The position numbers and the translations under genes are program-made. Shown in pieces: positions 31,959 through 48,170 of a stretch of 64,000 nt of DNA. The stretch's first letter is position 1. The number at the start of each line of letters is the position of its first letter. Source of the stretch: Limnobacter sp. 130 (GTDB lineage Bacteria; Pseudomonadota; Gammaproteobacteria; Burkholderiales; Burkholderiaceae_B); the NCBI RefSeq assembly GCF_902506325.1, contig NZ_LR732328.1, forward strand, positions 1,423,071 through 1,487,070, in the 5' to 3' direction. The notes below the pieces were generated by a model. It did not search any database and was not told the origin of the DNA. It worked only from the letters and a program-made list of their open reading frames with translations.

Positions 31959-34900
31959 CTAGAGCAACAACAGCAAACGGTTGGGGCTTTGATTCTGGCC
32001 AGCTTGGTACACAAAACGCTGTGACACCATGCGCATGAATGCCAGACCCATTCCGCCCTCGGGCAAATCGCCAAGACTAAGATCGTCTTGAAACGAATGC
32101 TCTTGGTGCATTTTGCTCAACACCTGCTGCGGTATGCAGTTGCCCAGGTCTTCAATCAATACGCCCACACCCTGCTGAAAAGCAAGCACTGTGAGTTGCA
32201 CAGGCTCGGGACGTTTGCCTTGAAATCCGTGCAGCATGACGTTGGTCAGCGCCTCGGACACAACCAGATCCGTGTTGTAACAAACTTCCTCGGAGTAGGC
32301 CAACTCTTCAACGAAGGTTCGCACGGCACGGCTTAACACACCGATATTGACCGTATCAGCCACTGCACTGAAAGCTATGTAGTTCAGAAACTCGCCTAAC
32401 TTGAGCGCTTTCTCATGCGAATCAAACTCGTCCTTGGCAGTCAAACCCGTTTGAACGAATTCGTCGGCAAGTTCTGAAATCCGACTGAACGATAATTCTG
32501 TGCGTTGCACGTCAAAACTTTCGCGCCACTGAATTCCGAGCAGGCACAAATCCCCATCAGCACCCTCTTCTTGTTGTCCTGAATCGAGCAATCGCGAAAA
32601 CTCCCGAGTCAGCACATGCCCTTGGCTGTCATCCAGCAACACCGATTGCTGCCAAACCTGTGGCTTGGGCACACCCAAGGTGTTCGCACATTCTTGCGGA
32701 TAAAAATACAGGCGACTGCCTGGTGCAATAACACCCTGGTAAATGATTTGTCCAAGCCCTGGGGCTTGGGCCGGCTCGCCCTGAGAACCAAAAAAAGCAG
32801 GCGCCAGCCCTGGCTGTGCCATGACCATGGTCCAATCGCCAATGCCGGCCACCAGCAATGTGCCTTGGTCCAGATTGATCAAACCATACAGGAGGTCGAA
32901 CTGGGGTGGCTCATCTTTCAGGGACGGAGAAATACTCGCAAGCTGGGACAGCACCTGCTCGGGACTTGCCAAATAGCGTCGAATCTTGGAACTGGTTTCT
33001 TCGATAGGAAACAATACACGCGTGGCTCGGGCCATGGAAAACCAGCGTGCAAGTGCCATGGTTTGCAACGCGGTTGCCGTGTCTTGCCCTGCCATGTTGA
33101 GCATGAAAAAGCCGTGCTCGTTGGCTTGGGTTTCAAGCAAACCCATTTGCTTGCCACACACATAGCCATGAGGTTGGTAGATCGTTTGAATCGCAAACGG
33201 CCAAGGTTCTTGTTTGCTTTTGGGTAACAAGGCACGCTGAATGCGGGACACTTCCCGCATGTCGCGCTGCAATGCTTCATACAACTGACTGAGCTCTGTG
33301 TGCCTGCGCTCAAGGCCTGTGTGCAAGTCCGCGATTCGCTCGGCGGTTTGCAGCCGCACCTTTAACTCGCCCGGGTTGACCGGTTTGGTCATAAAGTCAT
33401 CGGCACCCACGCGCAAACTGTTCAACAAATCATCGCGACTGGCATAGCCAGTAATCATGATGATGTAGGTGTACGCATTCTGTTTCTGGGCACGCACCTG
33501 CTCGCAAAGCTCAATGCCGCTCATGCCGGGCATGTCCCAGTCGGTCAATACAAAGTCGGGTTGATGCGTTTCAATCAGGGGCAATGCTTCGTGGCCATTT
33601 TTTGCCGAATACACGGTGTAACCCCAACTGTGCAGCATGGCCTCAAAAATTCTCAAGAAGCTTCGGGAATCATCAACGATCACAACCGACTTGCCGGCTT
33701 TCACAGGCGATGTCGCTGGGCGGCTTTCCTGAATTTCCTGAAGACGAAAAATGAGTTCGGGCACTTGTCGGTCGGCATCAACCACATCGCATTGGTCCAG
33801 CACACCGGGACGCGGGGCCAACATCAAAATGGACACATCGTCTTCGAAACCCTTTTGCTTGATGACCGAGCCGCCCCAATGTTGAACACGCATCTGGATG
33901 CGCTCGGGCAATTCGGACCAGCGCCCCTGACTGCTTTGCTGATTGACAAACTCCAGCAACCGTTCTTCTCCAAATGCTTCGGAGCTGGTCGAGAGCACCT
34001 CGGTCACGCCATCGGAGTAAAGAATCAAAGAGTCATCGTCGCCCAAAGTCAGCTCGATGTCTTCGAAATCATCAAGATCGAATAAGCCGACGGGATAACC
34101 CCCACCACCCAACACAGTGGCTGTGTTTCCTTTTGATAACAGAAGCGGAGACGGGTGACCGGCCTGGCACAGGGAGACATTGCGGTTTGCCGTGTTAAAC
34201 ACACCGTAGATCATGGTGAAATACGACAGGTCAGACTCGGTTTGCTGAAACAGTCGATTCAGACGCGCCACCACATCGCGTGGTTTGGAAACCATCCGTT
34301 GTCCGTCGCTGCCCAAACGCCCTTCGAAAACGATACTGGTGTTGGAACGGTCGGCAAACATTTGAACCAGTTGCATGGATTTGACCGCTGCCGGAATGCC
34401 ATGACCAGACACATCGAGCAGGTAAAAACCATACACGTCGCGCTGCAATTCAAAAACCTGCAGGTGATCGCCCGACACATATTTGGAAGGCACAGACAGC
34501 CACTGGTAATTCAGCCCCTGAAAGGGACTTTGCGCCTCGGGCAGAAAACTGCGCTGCAAGCCAGAGACCGCACGCAGATCTTGTGCAATTACTTCGTGCG
34601 CATGCGCCAGTTCATTGGTTTTCCGGGTCAGTTGAGCTTGAAGCTCGATTCGACGCACAGCGGACTGCAGCCGTGCCTCAAGTTCATTGCCATCAACAGG
34701 CTTTGCGAGTACGTCATCGGCACCGGCATCCAGCGCCTTGATGAGAAACTCTTCATCATTCTGGGCTGACATCAAAATAATGTAGGTGTACTGCCCCAAG
34801 TCGAGTTGGCGTAAAGCCACACACAACTCGGTGCCCTGCATACCCGGCATTTGCCAGTCCGCAAGCACCAACTGAAAACGGTCACGTTCAATCAGTTCGA

Positions 34901-35039
34901 TCGCTTCCTGACCGCTGGCTGCAAACTCAACCGGATAACCCCACTTGGCCACCATGTGAACGAAGAGGTTTCGCTCAACCACCGAATCATCAACAACCAG
35001 AATTCGGGGTAGCTGCTTATTGAGGTCGTGTTCTGTCAC
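31959..35039 (-). CDS. REC-PP2C-REC-pseudoPP2C-HATPase regulator
   Basis: 1026-aa cytoplasmic signalling protein. REC1 (about 12-130) has phospho-acceptor Asp61 and Lys113. A SpoIIE/RsbU-type phosphatase (about 160-410) keeps its metal residues: SGD (191), LLDVSGHG (Asp209), YSDG (Asp343) and EDD (400-401). REC2 (about 452-570) has Asp500 and Lys552. A second phosphatase-like domain (about 600-840) has lost them: CGK, LNMAGQD and FYPQEC replace SGD, LDVSGHG and LYSDG. A RsbW-like HATPase (about 850-1026) has an N-box with Asn933, DLG (964-966) and GGMG. It is encoded 6 bp after a STAS gene, its probable kinase/phosphatase substrate. The nearest described layout I know is HsbR of Pseudomonas (REC-PP2C-HATPase). 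Confidence 0.92.
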   Translation of the reverse strand: MTEHDLNKQLPRILVVDDSVVERNLFVHMVAKWGYPVEFAASGQEAIELIERDRFQLVLADWQMPGMQGTELCVALRQLDLGQYTYIILMSAQNDEEFLIKALDAGADDVLAKPVDGNELEARLQSAVRRIELQAQLTRKTNELAHAHEVIAQDLRAVSGLQRSFLPEAQSPFQGLNYQWLSVPSKYVSGDHLQVFELQRDVYGFYLLDVSGHGIPAAVKSMQLVQMFADRSNTSIVFEGRLGSDGQRMVSKPRDVVARLNRLFQQTESDLSYFTMIYGVFNTANRNVSLCQAGHPSPLLLSKGNTATVLGGGGYPVGLFDLDDFEDIELTLGDDDSLILYSDGVTEVLSTSSEAFGEERLLEFVNQQSSQGRWSELPERIQMRVQHWGGSVIKQKGFEDDVSILMLAPRPGVLDQCDVVDADRQVPELIFRLQEIQESRPATSPVKAGKSVVIVDDSRSFLRIFEAMLHSWGYTVYSAKNGHEALPLIETHQPDFVLTDWDMPGMSGIELCEQVRAQKQNAYTYIIMITGYASRDDLLNSLRVGADDFMTKPVNPGELKVRLQTAERIADLHTGLERRHTELSQLYEALQRDMREVSRIQRALLPKSKQEPWPFAIQTIYQPHGYVCGKQMGLLETQANEHGFFMLNMAGQDTATALQTMALARWFSMARATRVLFPIEETSSKIRRYLASPEQVLSQLASISPSLKDEPPQFDLLYGLINLDQGTLLVAGIGDWTMVMAQPGLAPAFFGSQGEPAQAPGLGQIIYQGVIAPGSRLYFYPQECANTLGVPKPQVWQQSVLLDDSQGHVLTREFSRLLDSGQQEEGADGDLCLLGIQWRESFDVQRTELSFSRISELADEFVQTGLTAKDEFDSHEKALKLGEFLNYIAFSAVADTVNIGVLSRAVRTFVEELAYSEEVCYNTDLVVSEALTNVMLHGFQGKRPEPVQLTVLAFQQGVGVLIEDLGNCIPQQVLSKMHQEHSFQDDLSLGDLPEGGMGLAFMRMVSQRFVYQAGQNQSPNRLLLLL

Positions 35040-35045
35040 AGTGGC

Positions 35046-35384
35046 TCAAGCCTGCTGTAAAAAGGCAACAGCTTTGGGCATGTCATCCAGCAAGGAAAAC
35101 TGGCGATCCATTCGGGATAGCTCGAACATCATTCGCACGGATTTGTTCATGCCAACCACGGCCAACTTGCCCTGGTGGTTGGTGATGTTTTTGAGCAAAG
35201 CAACCAAAGAACCCAAACCACCAGAGTCCACCAGTTTGACAGCCCCAATGTCCAAAGCAAATTTTCGGGTGGTGTCCAGTTTGGATACCACCGCGTTGCG
35301 GATGATTGTTCCCACCGCGCTGTCCAATCGAACTGCGTCTACGCGCAGCAAGAAAATATCCCCCACCTCTTCTGTCGAAACCAT
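35046..35384 (-). CDS. STAS-domain anti-sigma-factor antagonist
   Basis: 112-aa single STAS domain. The conserved phosphorylation site is Ser54 in LVDSGGLGSL. Such proteins switch partners according to phosphorylation by a HATPase kinase and dephosphorylation by a PP2C phosphatase; both activities are encoded in the next gene 6 bp downstream. The start ATG has AGGG about 9 nt upstream. It diverges from bcsB, which suggests a role in controlling the cellulose machinery, but the downstream target (sigma factor, cyclase or other) is not in the window. Confidence 0.92.
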   Translation of the reverse strand: MVSTEEVGDIFLLRVDAVRLDSAVGTIIRNAVVSKLDTTRKFALDIGAVKLVDSGGLGSLVALLKNITNHQGKLAVVGMNKSVRMMFELSRMDRQFSLLDDMPKAVAFLQQA

Positions 35385-35630
35385 ATTGTTCGCCCTAAAC
35401 TGTTAATTCTCTTTTCTAAAAGTGTGCGCTTTTCGGCACTTCACGCGATAATTGTATAAAACAAGCTCTACAAAATGAGCATATACAAAAACAATAGGAT
35501 AACGTGTTAACTAATGATTCATATTTTTTAAAGATTGACAAATATTAATCAAAATTAACACGTGCAATGATCAGATCAGGTCAATATTTAAAGCCTGTTC
35601 TTACAACCAAGCAGACCAGCGACCCCACTT
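35385..35630. promoter_or_regulatory. AT-rich divergent control region STAS/bcsB
   Basis: 246-bp AT-rich region between two divergent units. It contains a perfect 9-bp inverted repeat, ACGTGTTAA (35502-35510) and TTAACACGT (35555-35563). Inside it lies an 18-bp palindrome-like site TTGACAAATATTAATCAA (35535-35552), symmetric as TTGAnnAATATTnnTCAA. The TTGACA within it has no matching -10 at normal spacing, so I read it as an operator rather than a sigma-70 box. bcsB lacks a clear Shine-Dalgarno. The regulator is unknown. Confidence 0.5.
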
Positions 35631-37862
35631 ATGCGACACATACTTTATCTAGCCTTTGCCCTATTTTGCCTGACTGGCCACGCCCAAGAAAGCGCTGAAG
35701 CCAATACCTTAGTGGCTAATGTGGAAGGCACAGCAGCGATAGAGCGTAGCCGAACCCTGACTTTTACCGAGATGGGACAGCCCAACGGGGTCCGCTTGAG
35801 TGGTATTAACCGCTTTGTTGATTTGAATTCCGGTATTCGGCTGGACGAATTGGTGACTCGCGCCAATCTGAGTTTGCGTGTGCTGTACCCCCAAGGAATG
35901 CGACACGATCAGTCGTTTGTGCGCGTGTACGTGAACAACCAGCTTTCGGGTATTTCTCAACTGAGCGTGGCAAGGGCTGGTGTACCACACACGATAAATA
36001 TTGAACTGGATCCGCTGCTGTTTTCCGATTTTGCGACAGTGCGGATTGAATACGACGGTACTTACGACAGTGAATGCGTAGACCCGGGTAACCCAACCCT
36101 GCGCCTTGACATGCGCCCCGAAAGCACACTGACGATTGGCTCAACACCATTGAACCTGGTGAATGATCTGGCCTTGTTGCCAGCACCCTTTTTTGATCCC
36201 CGCGACAACCGCAAACTAAAACTGCCATTGGTTTTACCACTGGAGCAAACCGAAACAAGCATGAAGGCAGCCGGTATTCTGGCCTCTTGGATGGGAGCCC
36301 AGGCCTTTTACCGACAGGCTGAGTTTGATTTGCTTGAAACGGCGTCGAGCACCCGACACACCATCATTTTGACCAAAGGCAAGAAAATGCCTGAGGGTAT
36401 GAGTGAGGCGGACATTGAAGGCCCATCACTCATGATTGTGAGCGCCAAAGAAAACCCATGGATCAAACACCTTTACGTGATGGGCCGTACTGACGAGGAG
36501 TTGTTGCAGGCCGTGTACGGTTTGGTGATTGAAGGCCAGGTGCTCAGTGGACAGAAAGCCTTGGTCAAAAAAGTAGACCTGGGGGCGCCACGAAAGCCCT
36601 ATGACGCACCACGCTATGTGCCCACCAACCGACCAGTGCGCTTTGGCGAATTAATCGACTTTCCGGGTCAACTTGAAGTCAGCGCAGACAAACCGCGTGC
36701 TGCGATCAATTTGCGCCTTCCGCCCGATTTGTTCAGCTGGGCAGGTCGCAATATCCCGATGGATTTGAAGTACCGGTACACAGCACCTTCCCGCTGGAAT
36801 GATTCACTGTTGAACATTGAAATCAATAATTCCCTGATTCAATCCTTCCGCCTGGCACCACGATCCGAGCAGGTACAAAACAAAATCAATATTGATTTGT
36901 TGGGCCAGGCCGAACTGACCAGCGAAGAAGCCTTGCAAATCCCGGCCTTCAGGGTGGGCGGCAACAACGAGCTGGCATTTGCTTTCGGATTCATGGCTGA
37001 GGGCGGTGGCGCGTGCACACGGGTATCACAAGTGGCGCGCGGTTCGATTGATCCAGAATCCACCGTGGATTTTTCCAACTTGCCCCACTACACCCGCATG
37101 CCGAACCTGACCGCGTTTGCCAACGGCGGTTACCCATTCAGCATCATGGCTGACTTGTCAGATACTGCAATTGTTTTGCCAGCAAACCCTACGCCGCTTG
37201 AAATTCGCTCGTACCTGAACGTGATGGGCTTGTTTGGTCAGTGGACAGGTCTGCCTGCCACACGCACCAGCCTGATTGTCTCGGACAAACCCGAGGGTAT
37301 TGGCAGCAAAAACTGGCTGGCCTTGGGCACCAGCGAACGCCTGAGCTGGCTGGATTCCGCAAGTAAAAACCTGCCAATGGTACTCAATGAAACCGAGCGG
37401 AGCATGGGCCTGCCCCCCGCCATTCAATGGCTGAAAGGTTTGTGGCAAAGCGACTCTGAATTGCAACCCAGCAACAATGCACGCGCCTTGATTCAAACGG
37501 CAGGCTCATTGGGCGCAATCATGGGGTTTGAATCACACCTGGCACCCAAAAAAGCCGGGGTGGTGATTACAGGCACCGATCAGGACAGTTTCGAGCGCGC
37601 CGTGGCTGCTTTGTCCGATTACGGCGATGTGGCAAAAATCAAAGGCAGTGTGAGCCTGATTCGTGGTGATGACATACAAAGCTACAGCTTGGGCGAAACC
37701 TACATTAGCGGTGCACTGCCTTGGTGGTTGCGTTTGCGAATTGCGTTTTCCGAATACCCGGCCCTGATCGCTGTAGGCGGAGCGCTGGCTGGGGTCATTT
37801 TGGCGATACTCGCATTCGGCTGGTTGTCTGGCCGGGCTTCGCGCCGCACAAAAGGCAGTTGA
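35631..37862 (+). CDS. bcsB: Cellulose synthase periplasmic subunit BcsB
   Basis: Membrane-anchored periplasmic partner of BcsA that guides the nascent glucan. A signal peptide (residues 1-18, ending GHAQ) is followed by repeated carbohydrate-binding and flavodoxin-like modules (LRVLYPQGMRHDQSFVRVYVN; IRIEYDGTYDSECVDPG-type segment) and a single C-terminal transmembrane helix (about 709-735) with a basic cytoplasmic end. Length 743 aa is close to E. coli BcsB. It opens the cluster here, instead of following bcsA as usual. Confidence 0.94.
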   Translation: MRHILYLAFALFCLTGHAQESAEANTLVANVEGTAAIERSRTLTFTEMGQPNGVRLSGINRFVDLNSGIRLDELVTRANLSLRVLYPQGMRHDQSFVRVYVNNQLSGISQLSVARAGVPHTINIELDPLLFSDFATVRIEYDGTYDSECVDPGNPTLRLDMRPESTLTIGSTPLNLVNDLALLPAPFFDPRDNRKLKLPLVLPLEQTETSMKAAGILASWMGAQAFYRQAEFDLLETASSTRHTIILTKGKKMPEGMSEADIEGPSLMIVSAKENPWIKHLYVMGRTDEELLQAVYGLVIEGQVLSGQKALVKKVDLGAPRKPYDAPRYVPTNRPVRFGELIDFPGQLEVSADKPRAAINLRLPPDLFSWAGRNIPMDLKYRYTAPSRWNDSLLNIEINNSLIQSFRLAPRSEQVQNKINIDLLGQAELTSEEALQIPAFRVGGNNELAFAFGFMAEGGGACTRVSQVARGSIDPESTVDFSNLPHYTRMPNLTAFANGGYPFSIMADLSDTAIVLPANPTPLEIRSYLNVMGLFGQWTGLPATRTSLIVSDKPEGIGSKNWLALGTSERLSWLDSASKNLPMVLNETERSMGLPPAIQWLKGLWQSDSELQPSNNARALIQTAGSLGAIMGFESHLAPKKAGVVITGTDQDSFERAVAALSDYGDVAKIKGSVSLIRGDDIQSYSLGETYISGALPWWLRLRIAFSEYPALIAVGGALAGVILAILAFGWLSGRASRRTKGS

Positions 37863-37864
37863 AC

Positions 37865-39013
37865 ATGGCCTTGTGGCGTCAATTGCTCAAACGCCTGGGG
37901 CTCGGCGCCACGCTGATTGTGGCCTCCGCATGCAGCGCTGCGCCAGCGCAGTCGTGGCCCGCTTGGGAAGGCTTTAAAAGCGCTTTTGTCAGCGAAGACG
38001 GGCGTGTGATCGATCGCAGCCAGGAAGACTTGCGCACGGTGTCTGAAGGGCAGTCTTACGCCCTCTTTTTTGCATTGGTTGCCCAAGATCAAAAAACGTT
38101 CGACGCCATATTGGAATGGACTGAGAACAACCTGAGCGCTGGTGACATGGGTAAGCAGCTGCCTGCCTGGATTTGGGGAAAGCAGGGGGACTCGTGGGGC
38201 GTGATCGATGCCAACAGTGCTTCAGACGCTGACCTGTGGATCGCTTATGCGCTGCTGGAAGCCAGCCGGGTGTGGTGCCACACACCTTATGCTGACAAAG
38301 CCCGCGCCCTGGGCGAACTGATCCTGAACAAAGAAAGCATGGAAGTAAGTGGCCTGGGTTTGAGCCTGTTGCCGGGTCACACCGGATTTGTGCTGGACAA
38401 CGGTGCGGTTAAACTCAACCCCAGCTACGTACCGCCTTTCATGATGGCCCGCTTTGCCAATGCCTGGGCGGACGACACCCGCTGGTCGCAAATTTACCTG
38501 GCCAGCCAACAATTGCTGCTTGAAACTGGCAAAACAGGCAGTTATCCCGATTGGGTGCTATACAACAACGGTGCAATGAGCCTTCCCGAGGACGAGCAAC
38601 GTGGCGATTACGATGCCATACGCACCTACCTGTGGATTGCCATGACCAGTAAAAACGACCCCACCGTCGCAGCATTGTTGAAACAACTTTCTCCCATGGC
38701 GGCACTGCTGCTGAAACGACAGAACATGCCAGAATGGTTTGAACCAATGAATGGAAAGTTTTCTGGTGAACGTGGGCCTGCCGGTTTTCAAGCGGCGATG
38801 GCCCCGTTTCTGCAAACAATCGGCATGCCCGAACTTGCGAAAAAATTTCACGCGCAAAGCCTGAAAACTTCAAACCAGGAAGCATGGCTAAAGTACGGCT
38901 ATTACAACGGCGCACTCAGCCTTTTTGGGCAAGGCTATATGGATGGCTTGTATCGATTCAACACCTTGGGCGAATTCATGCCGCGTGGCAAAGAGGTTAA
39001 AAGCTGTGGCTAA
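37865..39013 (+). CDS. bcsZ: Periplasmic endo-1,4-beta-glucanase BcsZ (GH8)
   Basis: Cellulase of glycoside hydrolase family 8 needed for efficient cellulose export. A signal peptide precedes the mature domain, and the catalytic acid is Glu61 in SEGQSYALFFAL. The probable base is Asp250 in YDAIRTYLW, with the family segment SASDADLWIAYAL between them. I chose ATG 37865 (382 aa), two bases after the bcsB stop; longer frames run back into bcsB. Family clear. The signal contains ASAC, which is a poor lipobox, so I treat it as a soluble periplasmic enzyme. Confidence 0.94.
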   Translation: MALWRQLLKRLGLGATLIVASACSAAPAQSWPAWEGFKSAFVSEDGRVIDRSQEDLRTVSEGQSYALFFALVAQDQKTFDAILEWTENNLSAGDMGKQLPAWIWGKQGDSWGVIDANSASDADLWIAYALLEASRVWCHTPYADKARALGELILNKESMEVSGLGLSLLPGHTGFVLDNGAVKLNPSYVPPFMMARFANAWADDTRWSQIYLASQQLLLETGKTGSYPDWVLYNNGAMSLPEDEQRGDYDAIRTYLWIAMTSKNDPTVAALLKQLSPMAALLLKRQNMPEWFEPMNGKFSGERGPAGFQAAMAPFLQTIGMPELAKKFHAQSLKTSNQEAWLKYGYYNGALSLFGQGYMDGLYRFNTLGEFMPRGKEVKSCG

Positions 39014-41405
39014 GTGCAAAAAAAATCCAAGTCTGCGGACCTGCGCACTCGCATTGGCCATTCAAGCCTGTTTTGTAGCAATGCCCTTGGCAATTGCAGG
39101 GCAAGCCCATGCCAATGTGGATACACAGCAAACCAATATTCGTGCACTAAGCGACAAAGGGGTTTACTGGTATGAGCGTTTCCGGTTCGATCTGGCAGCA
39201 CAGTCGTTCAACAAAATACTGTTGATTGAGCCCACCAATGCGTCTGCCCTGCGCTGGCAAGGTTTAATCGATATCGCACGCGGCGACGTACAGGCCGCCA
39301 ACATTTGGCTTGGCAAACTACAGCTGGTGCATGGCAACACCCGGTTTTCCATTGAACTGCAACAGGCAATTACACTGGCTTCAGACAAGCGGCAGCAATT
39401 CGCCGAGTTACGTTACCTGGCCGACAGCGAGCAAATTCCACCCAACCTGCCACAGCGACTTCAGCAGTTGTTGCCACAGCCACCATTGGGTGAGGCCGCT
39501 GTGCAAATATATCGCCTGATGAACCGCACAGCCGAGGGCAGAGCATATGCTCGCAGACAAGTGGCTGAGCTGGCCAAACAGTACCCGGATGACCGACGTT
39601 ACAAAACACTATTGGCCGAACTGGGCGGTGTTGCTGGCAATACACTTGCACAATCACCCGCATCCGGTAGTGCTCGCCCCACCCGTCGACCAAACAATGT
39701 GGCACGGACAAACGCAGCACCGGTTAAGCAAGCTGAACCCGCAATACCCGAGGTACAAGCACAAGCCACTCCGGTGTTGTCTGACTTTGAGCAAGGACAA
39801 CAACTGGCTGACCAGGCACAAAAACAGATTGATCAAGGCAACAAAAACGAAGCGGCACGGCTGCTTCAAAACGCGGTGGACCTGAACCCGGGCTACCCGT
39901 GGTTTCGGTATGACCTGGCCACCCTGCTGGATGACCAAGGAGATACGGGCAGCAAGCAGGCTGCACAACGAATTATGGATGAAGGCCTGGCCCTTGAAAA
40001 AGGACAGGAAATGCGATTTGCTGCGGCACTGCTGGCCGCCCGCCAAAACCGCAATGAAGAAGCCGTTGCATTGATCAACGCGGTGCCCCGCGAGAACTGG
40101 ACAGAAGGCATGAGCGCGCTTGAAAAACGTGTGCAATATGGCCAGTACCTCGATGGACTGCGCGCACAAGAAAGGAACGGCCAGTTCAATGCACTGGCAA
40201 GCTCAATTGGTGCAACACCAAAGTGGCGCGCTGAACCCGAGGTGCAGGCACTGGAACAAGGCCTTCAGCGCAAACGTCAGGTACGGCTGCGTATGTCCTA
40301 CGAGAACGCGATTATCGATGGGGATGAAGGTGTGTCCAGAATCGATAGCGATGAAATTCCTTTGCAACTGGATTTGCCGCTCGATTTTGAGCGCACCCTG
40401 TTTTTACGCGCGGACACATTGAACGCGAATTCTGGCCGGGTGAACCCAGCCACCGCCAGCAACTTTGCAAAATTGGGCACCACATTGCCCACCGACCCAG
40501 CCATTGCCAATAACCGGCTGGACCAGAATTACAAAGGCCACGTGGTGGGTGTGGGCGTACAAACCGAGCAATACCGGGTGGATGTAGGTACCACCGTGGG
40601 CGACTACCCGGTCAATGACTGGGTGGGTGGTGTGCAGTGGAGTACCAATGTGGGAGCGGGTTCATTGCGACTTGAGCTGGCCAGGCGCATGGTCAACGGC
40701 AGCGTACTGTCGACCACTGGCGCTATCGACCCGTTGACCGGCGAAACCTGGGGTGGCGCAAGGCGCAACGGTATTAGCGCGGTGTATTACCAGGCATTTG
40801 ACTCCACACTCGACTTTGTGGGCATTGCACGCGCCAACCTGATTACCGGCAAAAATATTCCGGACAATACCGAGTACAACCTGCAAGGCATTGTGGGCAA
40901 AACCGTGTTTCAACGCCCTGGGCATGAAGTGGAAATTGGTGCGTCGCTGTTTTTGTGGTCGTTCGAGAAAAACCTGCGCTTTTACACCTTCGGCCAAGGT
41001 GGCTACTACAGTCCACAGGCGTTTGGATCATTGACCTTCCCCATCACCTGGACTGGCACCATGAATGGTTGGTCCTGGCAGGCTCAAGCACGTGTGGGCG
41101 CCAGTGAGTCACGCGAAGACGACACTGCCCTTTACCCACTCAACCCGGAACTGGCTGCTGCAGCTGCCGCGCAAGGCAACCCGACCTTGCAGACTGGCGG
41201 CCCAGGTGGGGGCACCAGCACGGGTTTGCGCCTTGCACTTGAACGCCAGGTATTGAAAAACTTTGTGGTGGGCGGTTACTTTGAAATTGACCGCTCTGAA
41301 GGTTACAACCCCGACAGATTACAGTTGTATGCGAAATATTCGTTTGGTGATTTTTTCGAACTGAGTGTGCCGCCCGAGGGTGTAACACCCTACTCGAGGT
41401 TTTGA
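39006..41405 (+). CDS. bcsC: Cellulose export outer-membrane protein BcsC
   Basis: Outer-membrane channel with periplasmic TPR repeats. A signal peptide (ending AGQAHA) leads TPR-type helices (residues about 40-460, interrupted by a Pro/Ala-rich linker) and a C-terminal beta-barrel (about 460-799, the BcsC_C family) ending in a terminal Phe. The start is GTG 39006, overlapping bcsZ by 8 bp, with AGAGG 9 nt upstream. At 799 aa it is much shorter than the 1157-aa E. coli protein because the TPR array is smaller. Confidence 0.92.
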   Translation: MAKCKKNPSLRTCALALAIQACFVAMPLAIAGQAHANVDTQQTNIRALSDKGVYWYERFRFDLAAQSFNKILLIEPTNASALRWQGLIDIARGDVQAANIWLGKLQLVHGNTRFSIELQQAITLASDKRQQFAELRYLADSEQIPPNLPQRLQQLLPQPPLGEAAVQIYRLMNRTAEGRAYARRQVAELAKQYPDDRRYKTLLAELGGVAGNTLAQSPASGSARPTRRPNNVARTNAAPVKQAEPAIPEVQAQATPVLSDFEQGQQLADQAQKQIDQGNKNEAARLLQNAVDLNPGYPWFRYDLATLLDDQGDTGSKQAAQRIMDEGLALEKGQEMRFAAALLAARQNRNEEAVALINAVPRENWTEGMSALEKRVQYGQYLDGLRAQERNGQFNALASSIGATPKWRAEPEVQALEQGLQRKRQVRLRMSYENAIIDGDEGVSRIDSDEIPLQLDLPLDFERTLFLRADTLNANSGRVNPATASNFAKLGTTLPTDPAIANNRLDQNYKGHVVGVGVQTEQYRVDVGTTVGDYPVNDWVGGVQWSTNVGAGSLRLELARRMVNGSVLSTTGAIDPLTGETWGGARRNGISAVYYQAFDSTLDFVGIARANLITGKNIPDNTEYNLQGIVGKTVFQRPGHEVEIGASLFLWSFEKNLRFYTFGQGGYYSPQAFGSLTFPITWTGTMNGWSWQAQARVGASESREDDTALYPLNPELAAAAAAQGNPTLQTGGPGGGTSTGLRLALERQVLKNFVVGGYFEIDRSEGYNPDRLQLYAKYSFGDFFELSVPPEGVTPYSRF

Positions 41406-42812
41406 ATGATTGACTTGCCCAAGCCCGGAGCCTACGTTGTGCGAGCACCCCATGCGAATCACTTTTCGCAGGGCCTGGTGCAACACTGGCTGGACTCGCA
41501 AGAAGAGACGCCATTCAAATCTTGCTTGTGGTTGACCGCAAGCCCAAAAAACGAGGTCCGCAGTTTTCTGGAACCCTACCTGCTTACACGCACAGGCGCT
41601 CCGAAAGGACTTGATGTGGTGTCAGTTCGAAATTTGTGGCCCAAAGGACATACAAAAAACGGCATTCGACAGCTGTGCCGCTCGCTCAACACCTTGTGCG
41701 TGCTCAAGCCTGCACTGGTTATTATTGACCATGCCGAGCTTTGGTTTAATGACAATGCTGAACCCGTGAGCCGACAAAACCCGCTGGCGCAAATGCGCTT
41801 GCTGCACCAATGGGCTCACCACGCACAAGCGCATGTGGTGACCACGGTGCAAGGCGACCTGCCAGAATGGAGCACCTTCGCAGATGGACTTGCCGATGTC
41901 AGCGACCATGGTGAATTTGAGTTTCGCCCTTGGTGGCCCACACAGTGGGGCCTGCAAACCAACTTGTGGAATGACCCCACCAGGTTTTCGAAGCTGCCCA
42001 TACACCATGTGTTGGACAGCCGTGTATTTGGCAGCCTGAAACAACTGGCACAAACCTGCCATCGCCTTCGCTTTGACACCAACGAGCTACACGGAATTCA
42101 TGTACAGGCACGCGGCGAAATGAGCGCTCAAGACGCATCGGTATTGCTTCGCATGGGTGCCGACACCGTGTGGCTGCAAGAAGAAAACATTGAAACCTGG
42201 TTGGGCATTACGGCGATGCAGCTTCACAAACCCACGCTGATTCAGCCTGCAACAGAGAATCACCAGAACACGTTTGCCCGCGACTTGCATGAAGTATTCA
42301 TGCCTGGGCTTTTAACGGTGGTGGCCAACCCCACTTTTGCTGCGCAGGGTTTGATGATGTTGCAATTGTCCAAACAGTGGTCCATGCATTGCACGCTGAC
42401 ACGCCTTTCCCTGATGCGCCACATGACTGCGCAAACTGCTCTGCGACTGGCCAACTGGTCGCAAGCCACCTGCGTATTCACAGCCACCCGAGAGGCCATT
42501 TACCTATTGAAAGTGTGGGTCAGCGAACCCGATGACACTAGCTACCGCAATTGGCTTGAATCGTGTTTCCGGGAAAACCTGCCTGTGCTATTTAGTGGTG
42601 ACATTCAATTTTTGGGCGAGGAAACCCAAAGTGAATTGCTTGCAGACTTGCACGAAGAACTTGAGCCTTTGTCGGTCGAGGACTTGATGGGTACAGACTT
42701 GAGTGAACCCGCGAAACTTGCGGAACTTTGGGACGAAACCCCCGAAGCCATGAACCAGAACAGACCATGGACCCAGCGATTGAGCAGGCTGCTTGGCGAG
42801 GAAGCGAAATGA
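41406..42812 (+). CDS. bcsE: Cellulose biosynthesis c-di-GMP-binding protein BcsE
   Basis: Cytosolic regulator that docks on the synthase and, in E. coli, binds c-di-GMP through a GIL domain. This 468-aa protein has an N-terminal degenerate RecA/NTPase-like part (LVIIDHAELWF) and a C-terminal part including LLRMGADTVW (Arg249) that resembles the GIL region. I do not see an unambiguous RxxD I-site. Placement directly after bcsC and overlapping bcsF by 4 bp supports the call more than motif detail does. Confidence 0.8.
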   Translation: MIDLPKPGAYVVRAPHANHFSQGLVQHWLDSQEETPFKSCLWLTASPKNEVRSFLEPYLLTRTGAPKGLDVVSVRNLWPKGHTKNGIRQLCRSLNTLCVLKPALVIIDHAELWFNDNAEPVSRQNPLAQMRLLHQWAHHAQAHVVTTVQGDLPEWSTFADGLADVSDHGEFEFRPWWPTQWGLQTNLWNDPTRFSKLPIHHVLDSRVFGSLKQLAQTCHRLRFDTNELHGIHVQARGEMSAQDASVLLRMGADTVWLQEENIETWLGITAMQLHKPTLIQPATENHQNTFARDLHEVFMPGLLTVVANPTFAAQGLMMLQLSKQWSMHCTLTRLSLMRHMTAQTALRLANWSQATCVFTATREAIYLLKVWVSEPDDTSYRNWLESCFRENLPVLFSGDIQFLGEETQSELLADLHEELEPLSVEDLMGTDLSEPAKLAELWDETPEAMNQNRPWTQRLSRLLGEEAK

Positions 42813-43018
42813 TTGTTTTTGGGCTGATCCTGAGTGGCCTTTTACTGGGTGTTTTACTTGCCATTTTGCTGGTGGGCAAAATGATGAAGAACCCGACAAC
42901 CCGAATCTGGTTAAGCGACTGGGTGAACTGGAGTAACAACCAGTTGCCTGACAACTGCTATCAGTTAGTGCGGCATGGCAAGTGGATTGCCAGCCCCGAT
43001 GACAAAGAGGACGCATGA
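42809..43018 (+). CDS. bcsF: Cellulose biosynthesis membrane protein BcsF
   Basis: 69-aa protein with one N-terminal transmembrane helix (residues 2-24, IVFGLILSGLLLGVLLAILL) and a short cytoplasmic tail. In E. coli BcsF anchors BcsE at the synthase. Its ATG overlaps the bcsE stop (ATGA) and its own stop overlaps the bcsQ start. Size, topology and place identify it; the sequence alone would not. Confidence 0.85.
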   Translation: MIVFGLILSGLLLGVLLAILLVGKMMKNPTTRIWLSDWVNWSNNQLPDNCYQLVRHGKWIASPDDKEDA

Positions 43019-43755
43019 TCATTATTGCATTGGTCTCCCCCACCGGGGGTGCAGGGCGTACCAGCCTGGCGATCGCCGCAGCAACTCACCTCAGCATGCT
43101 GGGGCGCAATGTCACGCTAGTGCAGGCCGACCCCATCAACAACATTGAATTTCAGCTGGGTTACGCCAGCCGCAGCGCGCGTGGTCTTGCCCATGTCATT
43201 TTGCAAGACGAACCACTTGAGCGTGTGGTGAACACCAGCAATGCCGGTTTCAAGCTGTTGCCGTTTGGTGAAATTTCCATGACCCAACAACTGGCCATTG
43301 ATCGCGTGCTGATGGAGCAACCCCAACGCCTGAGCGAGCTGTTTCAAAAAGATGAATTTGCTGACGACGCGGTGGTGATAATCGACTTGCCGCGTTGGCC
43401 CACACCTTGGTGTCAGAAAGTCATGGCACTTTCTGACCTGAACCTGATTACACTGATTCCGGATTCAGCCTCCATTTTGGGTATTGATACATTGCTGCCG
43501 CACTTGCTGGAGAGCCGGGGCGCATCTTACTTTCTCATGAACCGCTTCGATTCGGCCAAAGTATTGCACCTCGATTTGTGGACATTGTGCAAAATGAAAT
43601 TAAGCCACCGCCTGCTGCCTTTCTATTTGCATGAAGACCAGGCACTGGCCGAAAGTCTTGCAGCGGGACTGGTACTGGCAGACTATGCGCCCCGTTCACA
43701 GTTGGTTGAAGACCAACAAAAACTGTGCAACTGGATTGACTCGGAGATCGGATGA
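43015..43755 (+). CDS. bcsQ: Cellulose biosynthesis MinD/ParA-like ATPase BcsQ
   Basis: 246-aa SIMIBI-class protein that, with BcsR, positions and activates the synthase at the pole or membrane. The deviant Walker A is SPTGGAGRTS (residues 8-17), lacking both the KGG lysine and the GKT lysine; E. coli BcsQ, as I recall it, also departs from the consensus here. The Walker-B-like VVIIDLPRW and the C-terminal LLPFYLHEDQALAESLAAG segment match BcsQ. Overlaps bcsF and bcsA by 4 bp each. Confidence 0.92.
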   Translation: MIIIALVSPTGGAGRTSLAIAAATHLSMLGRNVTLVQADPINNIEFQLGYASRSARGLAHVILQDEPLERVVNTSNAGFKLLPFGEISMTQQLAIDRVLMEQPQRLSELFQKDEFADDAVVIIDLPRWPTPWCQKVMALSDLNLITLIPDSASILGIDTLLPHLLESRGASYFLMNRFDSAKVLHLDLWTLCKMKLSHRLLPFYLHEDQALAESLAAGLVLADYAPRSQLVEDQQKLCNWIDSEIG

Positions 43756-46238
43756 GCGCCTCGTCAAACTGGATCAACCGACTTGAGCGATTGCTTGATT
43801 TGCGGGAATTTCCAAACCTGAAAACGCGGGTGCGTTTGCTGCGCCTTTTTCAGGCACTTTGGTTGCGCCCAAACAGTTTGAACAGCGCATTCGAGGCGTC
43901 CAATGGTCGACAAGGCCGCAGCCTTCCAAGCTTCGTGTTTCATATTATTGCGGTGGCTTTGCATGATTTGCTCAGCCCGATTGCTTATCTGTTCAAGCTA
44001 CTGATTCAACGCCCTTACCGGGCGGTGCGTGCCATGTTCAGCAGGCTCACCGACTACGCAGTACGCGCGGCACGGCTTGAACAGCGCATTGAAAACACCA
44101 GTCAATTTGTAGCCCGCCACAAACCATTTCGTTGGGGACTCGGCCTTTCGGCATTGGTACTTTTTTTGTTTACCGCACAAGCCTCGCTGCCCTTGGCGGG
44201 TCAATGGATTTTCATTGTGGTGTGCTACCTGTTCGCCATGTTGTTCAAACGGCTACCCGAGCGATTCGCCAACCTGTGTTTGATGGCGTTGACCATGCTG
44301 CTATTGGCCCGCTATGTGTTTTGGCGTTTTACAAGTTCTCTTGATCTTGAAAGCGGCGCAGAAATTTTCTTGGGCTACACGCTGGTTGCCGCCGAGGCTT
44401 ACACCTGGGTCATCCTGATTTTTGGTTTTATTCAAACAGCCTGGCCGCTAAAACGCAAACCCATGCCACTGGAACTCAATTTGAGTGACTGGCCCACGGT
44501 GGACGTGTTCATCCCCAGTTACAACGAGCCCTTGTCAGTGGTGCGTCCAACGGTGTATGCCGCAAAGGGACTGGACTGGCCGCTTGAAAAAATCACGGTC
44601 TATATTCTGGACGACGGCCACCGCCCGGCCTTTGAGGAATTCGCGAAGCAAGCCGGCGTGGAGTACATTTCCCGCCCGGACAACTCGCATGCCAAGGCGG
44701 GCAATATCAACTATGCATTGAAGCACACCCACGGCCAGTACGTTGCAATTTTCGATTGCGACCACATTCCCACGCGCTCGTTTTTGCAAACCAGCATGGG
44801 CTGGTTTAGCCGCGACCCCAAGTGCGTACTGGTGCAAACGCCACACCACTTTTTCTCGGCGGATCCGTTCGAGCGCAACTTCAATTCATTTCGGCAAATG
44901 CCCAACGAAGGATCGCTGTTTTACGGCTTGATTCAAGACGGCAACGACTACTGGAATGCCTCGTTTTTCTGCGGCAGTTGTGCTGTCATTGAGCGCAAAG
45001 CCCTGCTGGAAGTGGGTGGTATTGCGGTAGAAACAGTGACTGAAGATGCTCACACCGCCTTGAAACTGCACAGCCTGGGTTACAACAGCGTGTACCTGAA
45101 CAATATTCAGGCGGCGGGCCTGGCCACGGAAACACTGGCGGGTCACATTGGTCAGCGTATTCGCTGGGCGCGCGGCATGGCGCAAATTTTCCGCACTGAC
45201 AACCCCATGTTCAAAAAGGGTTTAAGCGTGTTTCAACGCATTTGCTACTCCAATGCAATGCTGCACTTTTTCTACGGTATTCCACGCATGATCTTTTTGA
45301 TCATGCCAATGGCTTACCTGTTTTTCGAACAGCACCTGATCAATGCGGCGGCGGTCACGATTCTCAGTTACGCCTTGCCCCAATTGATTATTTCCAGCTA
45401 CACCAACTCGGTCATACAGGGCAAATACCGACGGTCGTTTTGGTCGGAGGTCTATGAAACCGTGTTGTCTTGGTACATTATTTTGCCAACAACACTGGCC
45501 TTTATTAATCCGAAGCTGGGCAAGTTCAACGTGACTTCCAAAGGCGGCCTGATCGAGAAAAGCTATTTCGATTCCAACATTGCAAAACCCTATTTGATCC
45601 TGCTGTTGATCAATTTGCTTGGATTCTCCGTGGGTTTACTTCGGCTGTTTGTGTTCAACACCCATGAAACTGGCACCGTGATCATGAACCTGCTTTGGTG
45701 CGGTTTTAACCTGGCAATTTTGGGTGCTGCCGTGGGTGTGGCCACCGAGTCGGTACAGCAGCACGTACACCATCGCGTGCGCATGGTTATGCCAGCTTTC
45801 CTTAAACTGCCAGGCGGCTACACGGTGAGCTGTTACACCGAGGAGTATTCTGCCGCAGGCCTGACTTTGGCCGTGGCCGACACTGCGGGCATCAGCGAGT
45901 TCAGCCAGGTACAGGTTGGATTGCACCGGGGCGACCGGGAATTTCTGTTTCCTGCAAAAATTCATTTCACGGAAAGTGGGCATGTTGAAGCCTTGTTCAC
46001 CAACCTGACTCCCGAACAGGAAACACAATTGATTCAGTGCACATTTGGACGAGCCGACGCCTGGCTGAACTGGCAAGAGGACCAGACACGTGATCGCGCG
46101 CTGGGCGGCCTGAAAGACGTATTCGCCAAAGGCATGATTGGTTATGTGCGCCTGTTTGCCTGGCTCAAAGGTGGTGCAGTTGGCCTGGGCAATCGCCTGA
46201 TGGGCAACAAAAACCAAACCGAAAAGTGGGAGAACTAG
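43752..46238 (+). CDS. bcsA: Cellulose synthase catalytic subunit BcsA
   Basis: GT2-family processive synthase, 828 aa, with multiple transmembrane helices, a cytosolic GT domain and a C-terminal PilZ domain. GT motifs: ILDDGH (Asp287-288), FDCDH (335-338), TED (430-432) and QRIRW (468-472). The gating loop is FNVTSK (592-597). In PilZ the usual RxxxR is HVHHR (671-675) and the usual [D/N]xSxxG is EYSAAG (698-703), so both c-di-GMP motifs deviate at their first residue. An N-terminal extension of about 130 residues precedes the first helices. It overlaps bcsQ by 4 bp. Confidence 0.96.
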   Translation: MSASSNWINRLERLLDLREFPNLKTRVRLLRLFQALWLRPNSLNSAFEASNGRQGRSLPSFVFHIIAVALHDLLSPIAYLFKLLIQRPYRAVRAMFSRLTDYAVRAARLEQRIENTSQFVARHKPFRWGLGLSALVLFLFTAQASLPLAGQWIFIVVCYLFAMLFKRLPERFANLCLMALTMLLLARYVFWRFTSSLDLESGAEIFLGYTLVAAEAYTWVILIFGFIQTAWPLKRKPMPLELNLSDWPTVDVFIPSYNEPLSVVRPTVYAAKGLDWPLEKITVYILDDGHRPAFEEFAKQAGVEYISRPDNSHAKAGNINYALKHTHGQYVAIFDCDHIPTRSFLQTSMGWFSRDPKCVLVQTPHHFFSADPFERNFNSFRQMPNEGSLFYGLIQDGNDYWNASFFCGSCAVIERKALLEVGGIAVETVTEDAHTALKLHSLGYNSVYLNNIQAAGLATETLAGHIGQRIRWARGMAQIFRTDNPMFKKGLSVFQRICYSNAMLHFFYGIPRMIFLIMPMAYLFFEQHLINAAAVTILSYALPQLIISSYTNSVIQGKYRRSFWSEVYETVLSWYIILPTTLAFINPKLGKFNVTSKGGLIEKSYFDSNIAKPYLILLLINLLGFSVGLLRLFVFNTHETGTVIMNLLWCGFNLAILGAAVGVATESVQQHVHHRVRMVMPAFLKLPGGYTVSCYTEEYSAAGLTLAVADTAGISEFSQVQVGLHRGDREFLFPAKIHFTESGHVEALFTNLTPEQETQLIQCTFGRADAWLNWQEDQTRDRALGGLKDVFAKGMIGYVRLFAWLKGGAVGLGNRLMGNKNQTEKWEN

Positions 46239-46242
46239 GGCC

Positions 46243-47946
46243 ATGTTGTTGTGGAACCTGTACTTCCTGATCAAGTTTGGCCTGCACTTTGCGGGGCAAC
46301 TGACGCTCAGCCCACTGTGGAACCTGGGATTGTTTGCCCTGTTGATTGCCACCAACCCCGCAGCCTACCAAAACAAACAACTGATGAAGGTGCTGCGCTA
46401 CCTGGTATTTACAGGCCCGGCAATTGCCTTGTTGCTGCATGAATTGGGCTTGGTGGTGTCACTGGCTTTGGTTGATCAAATCAAGGCGCTGTTCGGCTTC
46501 TCGCTTGACTACCTGTGGGAATTGCTTAAACGCACCATTCAACCCTGGATGCTGTGGGGGGCATTGCTCGGATTCATGGTGATTCGGGTATTGGATCGTT
46601 ATATACGAATCAGCAGTTGGGTGGGCTTTGGGCTTTTGGCCATGCTCGGAATTCAGGCGCTGCCTTTTATTCAGAAACAAACTCAAACCAGTGATGCGGT
46701 GGCCTTGCGGGAAGCTCAAATTCAACCCCGCGAAAACCTGTCACCGGCTGAGTTTTTGGCGCTGGGCCAGGTGGACTTTCAAAAACTGCGCGTGGCGCGT
46801 GACCAGGAAAGCCCAACCAAATTGCGTGACAATGCCTATGATGGTGCAGGACCAGGCGCGGTGCTTGCCGGCTTTTTTGATCGACAGCGCACTGTTGCGC
46901 TGGCCCCTTTCTCACCTGTGTCTGGCCCCGATTTTGATGTAATCGTGCTGCAAATCTGCTCACTGTCCTGGGCCGACCTGCAATACGCCAAGCAGGGCCA
47001 GCACCCCACCATCCGGCAAGCTGATTTTGTGTTTGAGAACTTCAACTCGGCCACCAGTTATTCTGGCCCTGCTGCCATTCGCCTGTTGCGCGGCAAGTGT
47101 GGCCAAACGCCGCACGACGCACTTTACAGCGCGGCCAACAGCAGTTGCATGTTGTTTGAGCAACTGCGAAATGTGGGTTTTGAAGTGGCGATGGGTTTAA
47201 ATCACAATGGAAAGTTTCAGGATTTTTCAAAACTCGTCAAAACCAACCTCGGCGGCAAAGTCACCGAGCTGGTTGCCCATGACGAAGTGCCTGCGGGGGT
47301 GCAAGCCTTTGACGGTTCCCGCGTGGGGCGCGATGGCGATTATCTGCGCGCATGGTGGAACAAACGCGTTCAACAAAGCGGGCCCGCTGTGGCTTACTAC
47401 TACAACAGCATTACCTTGCATGATGGCAACCGTTTGCCCAACAGCAACTTGAACAGCCTGAACAGTTACCCTTTGCGCCTTGAGCGGATGCTGAACGACA
47501 TTCAATCTGTATTGGGTGAAATTCGTCGCAGTGATCGCAAAGCCTTGGTGGTTGTAGTACCCGAGCACGGCGCCGGGCTGACCGGTGAATTCGGTCAACT
47601 GGTGGGGCTTCGCGAGTTGCCAACACCTGCCATTACGAAGGTGCCTGTGTTCGGTTACTGGGTTGCGCCCGGATACACACCGGCAAGCACAGGCCCCGTC
47701 ACAGTGAAGCAATCGGTAAGCTACACCGCACTCAGCGAATTGTTGGTGCGGTGGCTGGCACAACCACTGGAACAGCAACTAAAACCCACTTGGCCCGTGT
47801 TGCTAAGCGATTTGCCCGATACCCGCTTCGTGTCCCAGCAAGGCAATATCACGGTGATGGAAAGTCAGGGTGCTTATTGGATCAAAGCGCCTGGTGCGGC
47901 CTGGAAAATGCTGGGCCCGGTTCAAACCATTGCGGCCAGCAACTGA
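46243..47946 (+). CDS. bcsG: Cellulose phosphoethanolamine transferase BcsG
   Basis: Inner-membrane enzyme that adds phosphoethanolamine from phosphatidylethanolamine to cellulose. Several N-terminal transmembrane helices (residues about 5-160) lead a periplasmic alkaline-phosphatase-fold domain. Active-site residues align with E. coli BcsG: Cys239 in CSLSW, nucleophile Ser274 in NSATSYSGPA (same 35-residue spacing), and Glu441-His442 in PEHG. Length 567 aa fits. It follows bcsA by 4 bp. All catalytic residues are intact, so modified cellulose is expected. Confidence 0.95.
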   Translation: MLLWNLYFLIKFGLHFAGQLTLSPLWNLGLFALLIATNPAAYQNKQLMKVLRYLVFTGPAIALLLHELGLVVSLALVDQIKALFGFSLDYLWELLKRTIQPWMLWGALLGFMVIRVLDRYIRISSWVGFGLLAMLGIQALPFIQKQTQTSDAVALREAQIQPRENLSPAEFLALGQVDFQKLRVARDQESPTKLRDNAYDGAGPGAVLAGFFDRQRTVALAPFSPVSGPDFDVIVLQICSLSWADLQYAKQGQHPTIRQADFVFENFNSATSYSGPAAIRLLRGKCGQTPHDALYSAANSSCMLFEQLRNVGFEVAMGLNHNGKFQDFSKLVKTNLGGKVTELVAHDEVPAGVQAFDGSRVGRDGDYLRAWWNKRVQQSGPAVAYYYNSITLHDGNRLPNSNLNSLNSYPLRLERMLNDIQSVLGEIRRSDRKALVVVVPEHGAGLTGEFGQLVGLRELPTPAITKVPVFGYWVAPGYTPASTGPVTVKQSVSYTALSELLVRWLAQPLEQQLKPTWPVLLSDLPDTRFVSQQGNITVMESQGAYWIKAPGAAWKMLGPVQTIAASN

Positions 47947-47960
47947 AGGGGAAAAAAGCC

Positions 47961-48170
47961 ATGGCACAATTTGACCCCAACACACCACCAGCCCTGTTCA
48001 TGCCGCCCGCCGACATGGCACATGACATTTATGCGCTCAGCGCACAGCTGGAGGGTTTTGATCACAACATGTACCAGGACATTCAACAGGACCAGGCGAT
48101 GTACGACTCGTTCCAGCGCTGGCCCTTTTTGTTTGGCATTGCCATGGCCTCGCGGTTTAGCGAGGAATAA
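47961..48170 (+). CDS. bcsR: BcsR-like small protein of cellulose biosynthesis
   Basis: 69-aa soluble protein. The pattern DIYALSAQL ... MYQDIQQDQ ... FQRWPFL matches the E. coli BcsR pattern (DIxAL, YxDIxQ, RWPxL) along its length. BcsR forms a complex with BcsQ and regulates the synthase. In E. coli bcsR opens bcsRQABZC; here it closes the cluster after bcsG. ATG 47961 has GGGG 9-10 nt upstream. Its stop is 9 bp from the convergent acyltransferase gene. Confidence 0.82.
   Translation: MAQFDPNTPPALFMPPADMAHDIYALSAQLEGFDHNMYQDIQQDQAMYDSFQRWPFLFGIAMASRFSEE

Follow-up and report, generated by a model that had tools for sequence, protein, structure and literature searches.

Cellulose synthesis is a textbook output of cyclic di-GMP (c-di-GMP). 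Here we describe a stretch of 64,000 nucleotides from Limnobacter sp. 130 (positions 1,423,071 to 1,487,070 of contig NZ_LR732328.1, hereafter the window; host assembly 3.28 Mb in 6 contigs), in which the genes for a STAS protein and a multidomain phosphatase/kinase, here called PSK, diverge from a nine-gene cellulose (bcs) cluster. Statements from the literature refer to excerpts of the cited sources. Among described systems, CrsR-CrsA of Shewanella and HsbR-HsbA of Pseudomonas are similar in pairing a response regulator that carries PP2C and HATPase kinase domains with a STAS partner bearing a phospho-serine, and CrsR and HsbR act on RpoS (PMC6482189). PSK departs from this type by carrying an additional REC and a further, degenerate PP2C domain, and the CrsR/HsbR target RpoS was not detected above cut-off in Limnobacter; moreover, hsbRA sit among flagellar genes (PMC5085249), whereas the Limnobacter switch genes lie at bcs. 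SypE and SypA of Vibrio (Aliivibrio) fischeri likewise combine a serine kinase/phosphatase with a STAS protein linked to the locus for a biofilm polysaccharide, the target of SypA being given as not known (PMC8256260, PMC4646962) and the syp locus being separate from the cellulose genes (PMC4646962). SypA is the closest functional precedent for the Limnobacter STAS protein. The domain order of PSK, REC-PP2C-REC-pseudoPP2C-HATPase, differs from that of SypE, which is reportedly kinase-REC-phosphatase.

All nine subunits of the E. coli type II Bcs system (BcsRQABEFGZC), including the vestibule parts BcsRQEF (PMC11470070), are also found in Limnobacter, which differs in having lost the RxxxR and [D/N]xSxxG motifs of BcsA and the RxGD motif of BcsE, and in carrying a partner switch divergent from bcsB. 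Among the matches listed in searches of open-licence literature, no paper dealt with a partner switch at a bcs cluster, as judged from titles and abstract openings. The evidence tips slightly towards a type II cellulose cluster that has been stripped of the motifs of both its c-di-GMP receptors (PilZ in BcsA, RxGD in BcsE) and coupled to a switch of one kinase and one STAS protein. In the best reading, cellulose output would have moved from c-di-GMP to serine phosphorylation of the STAS protein, acting through the Bcs complex or its transcription and not through a diguanylate cyclase.

Both c-di-GMP receptors of the cluster lack their canonical motifs

The two receptors and their altered sites lie as follows (window coordinates, strand):

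43752-46238, plus: bcsA with PilZ domain (NF008558, 1.3e-298; Pfam glycosyltransferase and PilZ)
45762-45776, plus: BcsA residues 671-675, HVHHR where RxxxR is expected (alignment)
45843-45860, plus: BcsA residues 698-703, EYSAAG where [D/N]xSxxG is expected (alignment)
41406-42812, plus: bcsE, divergent, 468 amino acids (aa) (TIGR03369, 7e-6, below cut-off; profile comparison probability 97.9)
42462-42473, plus: BcsE residues 353-356, QATC where the c-di-GMP motif RxGD is expected (alignment)

Alignment of BcsA with the solved 7lby, which we take to be E. coli BcsA, and others placed His671 at the first Arg of RxxxR and Glu698 at the Asp of DxSxxG. Among the 16 main-cluster proteins of the genus, position 671 is His in 14 and Asn in one, and position 698 is Glu in 13, Asp in one and His in one; the remaining protein (locus L035 of genome G009) is frameshifted at the motif and therefore falls outside the readable 15. 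Loci repeating genus genomes (L072-L085) were left out of these PilZ counts. In other genera, by comparison, the first PilZ Arg is present in 154/154 loci (80/80 and 88/88, with 14 common to both sets), a collection that may contain some species twice; the second is Arg in 144 and His in 10, and position 698 is Asp or Asn in all 154. Since the second motif is written [D/N]XSXXG (PMC10374906), Asn at this position elsewhere is canonical and the Glu of Limnobacter is not. The catalytic TED and QRIRW (QxxRW) motifs and the gating-loop motif FNVTSK (FxVTxK) are all present in the BcsA of the window.

Three genomes (G004, G006 and G015) encode a second BcsA, in which all PilZ motif residues are intact (3/3), and this second bcs cluster is a natural within-cell control. 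It consists of bcsA-bcsB-bcsZ (L036, L037 and L038, respectively), accompanied by a bcsQ-like gene in L036 and L037, with no STAS match adjoining.

A salt link between PilZ Arg580 and Glu371 locks the synthase in its resting state, and both Arg residues of RXXXR contact c-di-GMP (PMC10374906). The acidic partner of this tether is retained in Limnobacter (Glu in 14 and Asp in 2 of 16 BcsA). With the acidic partner kept and the PilZ Arg gone, loss of both the tether and c-di-GMP binding is therefore expected. An Arg580 mutant described by Morgan and others in 2014 is reportedly constitutively active.

BcsE gave no Pfam match, and its identity rests on the weak TIGR03369 hit and on profile comparison with ten other BcsE. 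The RxGD site was located by alignment to the RTGD of solved BcsE, in which R415 and D418 bind c-di-GMP (PMC7439463). Outside the genus, 59 BcsE open reading frames (ORFs) were recovered from 66 loci; 55/59 have RxGD at the aligned site, the other four (Cupriavidus) have DxGD there, and all 59 hold RxGD somewhere in the ORF. In the window BcsE and in 29/29 Limnobacter ORFs, RxGD was absent both at the aligned site and elsewhere; these 29 represent 15 genomes, 14 of which are present twice, as themselves or as near-copies. From their sequences, then, the two receptors make the cluster look blind to c-di-GMP.

Purifying selection on the altered domains is strong. Among close genomes the ratio of nonsynonymous to synonymous substitution rates (dN/dS) was 0.016 for PilZ, 0.068 for BcsE and 0.060 for the degenerate second PP2C domain of PSK (15 pairs, 6 genomes), and 0.048 for STAS (6 pairs, 4 genomes); these are rough values, obtained by the Nei-Gojobori method at a mean dS of 0.65-1.5. 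The PilZ value led us to reject the idea that this domain is decaying. Motif loss is also not genome-wide, since the genome retains seven GGDEF matches as well as three other PilZ proteins, of which two hold both motifs. In a BcsA tree made by a quick method, the main-cluster proteins form one clade with a Shimodaira-Hasegawa-like approximate likelihood ratio test (SH-aLRT) support of 100; L035 was left out, and L034 was flagged for a long branch with odd composition.

A STAS protein and a predicted dual phosphatase/kinase diverge from bcsB

The initial annotation had described a STAS protein with an intact phospho-serine and a phosphatase/kinase protein diverging from bcsB of a nine-gene bcs cluster, and the ORFs of the STAS, PSK and bcs genes, Pfam and the orthologue alignment bear this out. 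Both switch genes are on the minus strand and diverge from bcsB across 246 bases; 6 bases separate the end of the STAS gene from the start of PSK on the same strand, and the two presumably form one operon. The features of the switch are:

31959-35039, minus: PSK, REC-PP2C-REC-pseudoPP2C-HATPase, 1026 aa, predicted dual phosphatase/serine kinase (Pfam, orthologue alignment)
34665-35006, minus: REC1, about residues 12-125 (Pfam; Asp61 nearly invariant, Asn in L032)
33819-34439, minus: PP2C1 (SpoIIE), residues 201-407 per Pfam (Pfam, alignment)
33351-33686, minus: REC2, residues 452-563 (Pfam; Asp500 invariant, 14/14)
32460-33272, minus: PP2C2, degenerate copy of PP2C1, about residues 590-860 (hhalign against PP2C1; no Pfam SpoIIE stretch)
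31998-32348, minus: RsbW-type HATPase, residues 898-1014 (Pfam HATPase_c_2, alignment)
35046-35384, minus: STAS-only protein, 112 aa, Ser54 codon at 35223-35225 (Pfam STAS)
35385-35630, no strand: divergent intergenic region between STAS and bcsB (blocks conserved in close relatives; palindrome-like site at 35420-35441)

Pfam thus finds two REC domains, one SpoIIE and one HATPase_c_2 in PSK, so that one protein holds REC, PP2C phosphatase and HATPase kinase domains, the REC in duplicate and the PP2C with a degenerate copy. PP2C2 is homologous to PP2C1 (hhalign probability 99.4, 22% identity) and is devoid of the metal-binding Asp residues. Across the 14 aligned PSK proteins (the broken PSK of G007 and G009 being left out), PP2C1 Asp191, which lies just outside the Pfam stretch, Asp209, Asp343, Asp400 and Asp401 are invariant, as are E929/N933/H937, D964xG966 and G996xG998 of the HATPase. 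Ser54 of the STAS protein is invariant in 11/11 aligned orthologues (of 16) and aligns with the serine of the solved anti-sigma antagonist TM1442. From these motifs the switch would be predicted to be active.

Among 13 RsbW-type HATPase matches in the genome, only that of PSK is strong (E 1e-13, with the runner-up at 7e-8), and nine of the others were viewed, all of which except L171 resemble histidine kinases by eye. The best solved relative of the PSK profile, over the REC and PP2C part, is the two-component response regulator 3eq2/3f7a, presumably RssB of Pseudomonas, which at 394 aa differs in being without the second REC-PP2C unit and the HATPase. The best NCBIfam match, NF045505 (RssB of Pseudomonas), was far under cut-off. 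Two Limnobacter genomes also encode PSK-like proteins, at L175:8203-11379 (G002) and L176:8883-11933 (G004), in which Pfam finds a single REC, a pair of SpoIIE stretches and a HATPase; the L176 protein adjoins a cluster resembling those for type IV pili/type II secretion (T2SSE, T2SSF, PilO-like and a weak match to secretin), and the tandem arrangement may be more widely used in Limnobacter.

The linkage of switch and bcs cluster is conserved throughout the genus

The divergent arrangement of STAS-PSK and bcsB is kept in 16/16 Limnobacter genomes, the window included, and a BcsA orthologue is likewise present in 16/16. The count comprises 14 loci reaching the region (L021-L034), G009 and the window. 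STAS and PSK diverge from bcsB in all 14 loci, with L022 stopping within PSK; the PSK of G007 is partial, at a contig end, and in G009 the bcsA contig stops at bcsZ, while the start of bcsB lies on another contig, divergent from STAS and a frameshifted PSK. Orthologue identity within the genus falls as low as 40% for PSK and 58% for BcsA, and because the arrangement is kept in every genome while PSK diverges this far, the linkage seems more than chance. This conservation also led us to reject a contaminant or a recent insertion. The 35-kb contig of G008 keeps the STAS-PSK-bcs block, and the genes beyond PSK (MerR-like, phospholipase A1 PLA1 and further left) were not found on it, bar a generic ABC match; downstream, the wax-ester-synthase-like and enoyl-CoA-hydratase-like genes are not on the contig, of which only about 1.5 kb is left there.

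Outside the genus, PSK had no match at E 1e-60 in 252/252 other genomes of the family, and in the rest of the class 7/368 genomes had a match at this threshold, none of them full-length (about 400 N-terminal residues or less). BcsA is found in 79/268 family genomes, 16 of them Limnobacter. In 66 non-Limnobacter bcs loci, no STAS gene was detected beside bcs with local profiles (ORFs of at least 80 aa, E 0.01). A Pfam STAS search in 30 of those 66 genomes, with hits possibly within loci picked by hand, gave one hit inside a locus (L113), in a 644-aa ORF that is SulP permease-like by eye. Weak PP2C-profile matches were seen at two non-Limnobacter bcs loci, L090 (E 4e-7) and L149 (E 2e-5). The adjacency for which the initial annotation had proposed a check in related genomes is therefore a property of the genus and not of this genome only, and it was not found in these tests beyond Limnobacter.

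Remaining genes and sites of the locus

The nine bcs genes follow in the order B-Z-C-E-F-Q-A-G-R on the plus strand, with bcsB first. The presence of bcsE, bcsF and bcsG with bcsR, Q, A, B, Z and C marks this as a type II cellulose secretion cluster like that of E. coli, in which bcsF is assigned from position, length and conservation and has no family match in Pfam or NCBIfam scans. Besides bcsA and bcsE, the cluster contains:

35631-37862, plus: bcsB (PF03170, 1e-163)
37865-39013, plus: bcsZ, glycosyl hydrolase family 8 (Glyco_hydro_8 PF01270, 7e-69)
39006-41405, plus: bcsC, GTG start (BCSC_C PF05420)
42809-43018, plus: bcsF, small membrane protein (position, length, conservation)
43015-43755, plus: bcsQ (TIGR03371, 3e-51, above cut-off; Pfam BcsQ)
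46243-47946, plus: bcsG, phosphoethanolamine transferase (PF11658, 2e-141)
47961-48170, plus: bcsR (PF10945, 2.7e-7)

Between the divergent genes, the palindrome-like site AAGTGT-N10-GCACTT, with one mismatch, lies in a block conserved among close relatives and could be a shared operator; the pattern matches three times in the window against 2.67 expected. Sigma-70-like sites in the intergenic region numbered one, against 1.0 expected from shuffles. On the other side of the switch, a MerR-family regulator gene (31076-31948) is convergent with PSK and ends 10 bases away; most of the genus retains it, and it was not found on the G008 contig.

Proposed mechanism and alternative readings

In the mechanism that we propose, a histidine kinase would phosphorylate REC1 and/or REC2 of PSK, and the state of these domains would set the balance between PP2C1, stripping phosphate from Ser54 of the STAS protein, and the HATPase kinase, adding it. 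Free or phosphorylated STAS would then set cellulose output, most likely by binding a cytosolic Bcs part (the PilZ domain of BcsA, BcsE, BcsQ or BcsR) or, alternatively, by acting through bcs transcription. Because loss of the first PilZ Arg should remove the Arg-Glu resting tether, the synthase would by default be active, and another brake would be needed. Control by phosphorylation was proposed in the initial annotation as a second layer over c-di-GMP; the genus-wide adjacency and the missing motifs support such control, and the word "second" may have to give way to "replacement".

A stronger form of this proposal, which we hold only tentatively and consider rather doubtful, places the synthase complex wholly outside c-di-GMP control, with STAS in either phosphorylation state serving instead of c-di-GMP as a protein ligand that would open or close the BcsA/BcsE vestibule. 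The BcsRQEF vestibule of E. coli is able to maintain a competent BcsA even when BcsA carries no c-di-GMP, with BcsE as the sensor (PMC11470070). Limnobacter keeps BcsR, Q, E and F but not the c-di-GMP motif of BcsE.

Several observations weigh against the proposed transfer of control from c-di-GMP to the switch. The second PilZ Arg is retained in 15/15 readable main-cluster proteins and L033 retains the Asp of the second motif, and given these residues weak c-di-GMP binding by BcsA is possible. His also replaces the second PilZ Arg in nine Dyella and one Paraburkholderia BcsA that have no STAS neighbour by local profile. In BcsE, the Arg of the motif is kept (RATC) in 2/29 Limnobacter ORFs, Arg222 is invariant, and the four Cupriavidus BcsE with DxGD at the aligned site (L091, L092, L104 and L114) have no detected STAS neighbour. 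Every change maps to a single stem branch (n=1), and since motif loss and switch form one joint event, their association cannot be put to a statistical test. Synteny in most of the genus extends to other flanking genes as well, and in G008 bcsR is followed immediately by the nuclease gene that is third downstream in the window; with so much flanking synteny conserved, adjacency is weakened as evidence. As separate observations on these comparison loci, the Dyella and Paraburkholderia BcsA (L117, L119, L122-L125, L128, L132, L143 and L145, L128 being the Paraburkholderia) have Asn in the second motif, and the PilZ domain of the four Cupriavidus loci keeps both Arg.

Three routes had been named in the initial annotation, through a sigma factor, a diguanylate cyclase or direct contact with Bcs proteins. 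That the switch governs a sigma factor in the manner of CrsR-CrsA and HsbR-HsbA, with bcs as one target or a mere neighbour, is unlikely but the best of the alternatives, and the combination of REC, PP2C and HATPase with a STAS partner is indeed the CrsR/HsbR architecture (PMC6482189). This route leaves the loss of both c-di-GMP motifs unexplained, and a Pfam scan of 18 locus proteins found no sigma or separate anti-sigma family among them. RpoS (TIGR02394) reached cut-off in 0/16 genus genomes against 1/14 control genomes, presumably E. coli, and RpoS was set aside as the target. Other sigma factors remain: proteins of about 310-390 aa and of mostly 267 aa, which from their size we take to be RpoH and FliA, give weak matches to the RpoS model and are possible targets. 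The sigma route is thus weakened as first drawn, and direct contact of STAS with Bcs proteins is, as far as sequence comparison can guide us, the favoured one. Direct action of STAS on Bcs assembly, or on bcs transcription via another sigma factor, would be the best readings.

It is more improbable still that the arrangement is ordinary inherited synteny, with the switch regulating something else and the Bcs motif loss an unrelated quirk, such as a constitutive synthase. The flanking synteny, which extends to one downstream gene even in G008, and the origin of all changes in a single evolutionary event would fit such a history; against it, G008 keeps the STAS-PSK-bcs block though the genes beyond PSK are gone, and the linkage persists while PSK identity drops to 40%.

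Least probable, and by some way, is activation of a diguanylate cyclase by STAS with cellulose still under c-di-GMP, for although phosphorylated HsbA binds HsbD and raises c-di-GMP (PMC5085249), the genome holds seven GGDEF matches and c-di-GMP could act on bcs transcription, no GGDEF family occurs among the 18 locus proteins (Pfam scan), the BcsA and BcsE of this cluster are without the canonical motifs that would read c-di-GMP, and a synthase that has no receptors would gain little from a cyclase.

A published strain, L. alexandrii LZ-4, is reported to be the highest exopolysaccharide producer of seven, and its exopolysaccharide is presumed to be cellulose (PMC12628687). If the transfer of control to the STAS switch is true, Limnobacter would be a genus-wide case of a rewired second-messenger output, in which the synthase and its accessory sensor lost the c-di-GMP motifs yet remained subject to purifying selection, next to a conserved switch based on serine phosphorylation, and it would offer a tractable route to finding what a STAS protein linked to an exopolysaccharide acts on directly.

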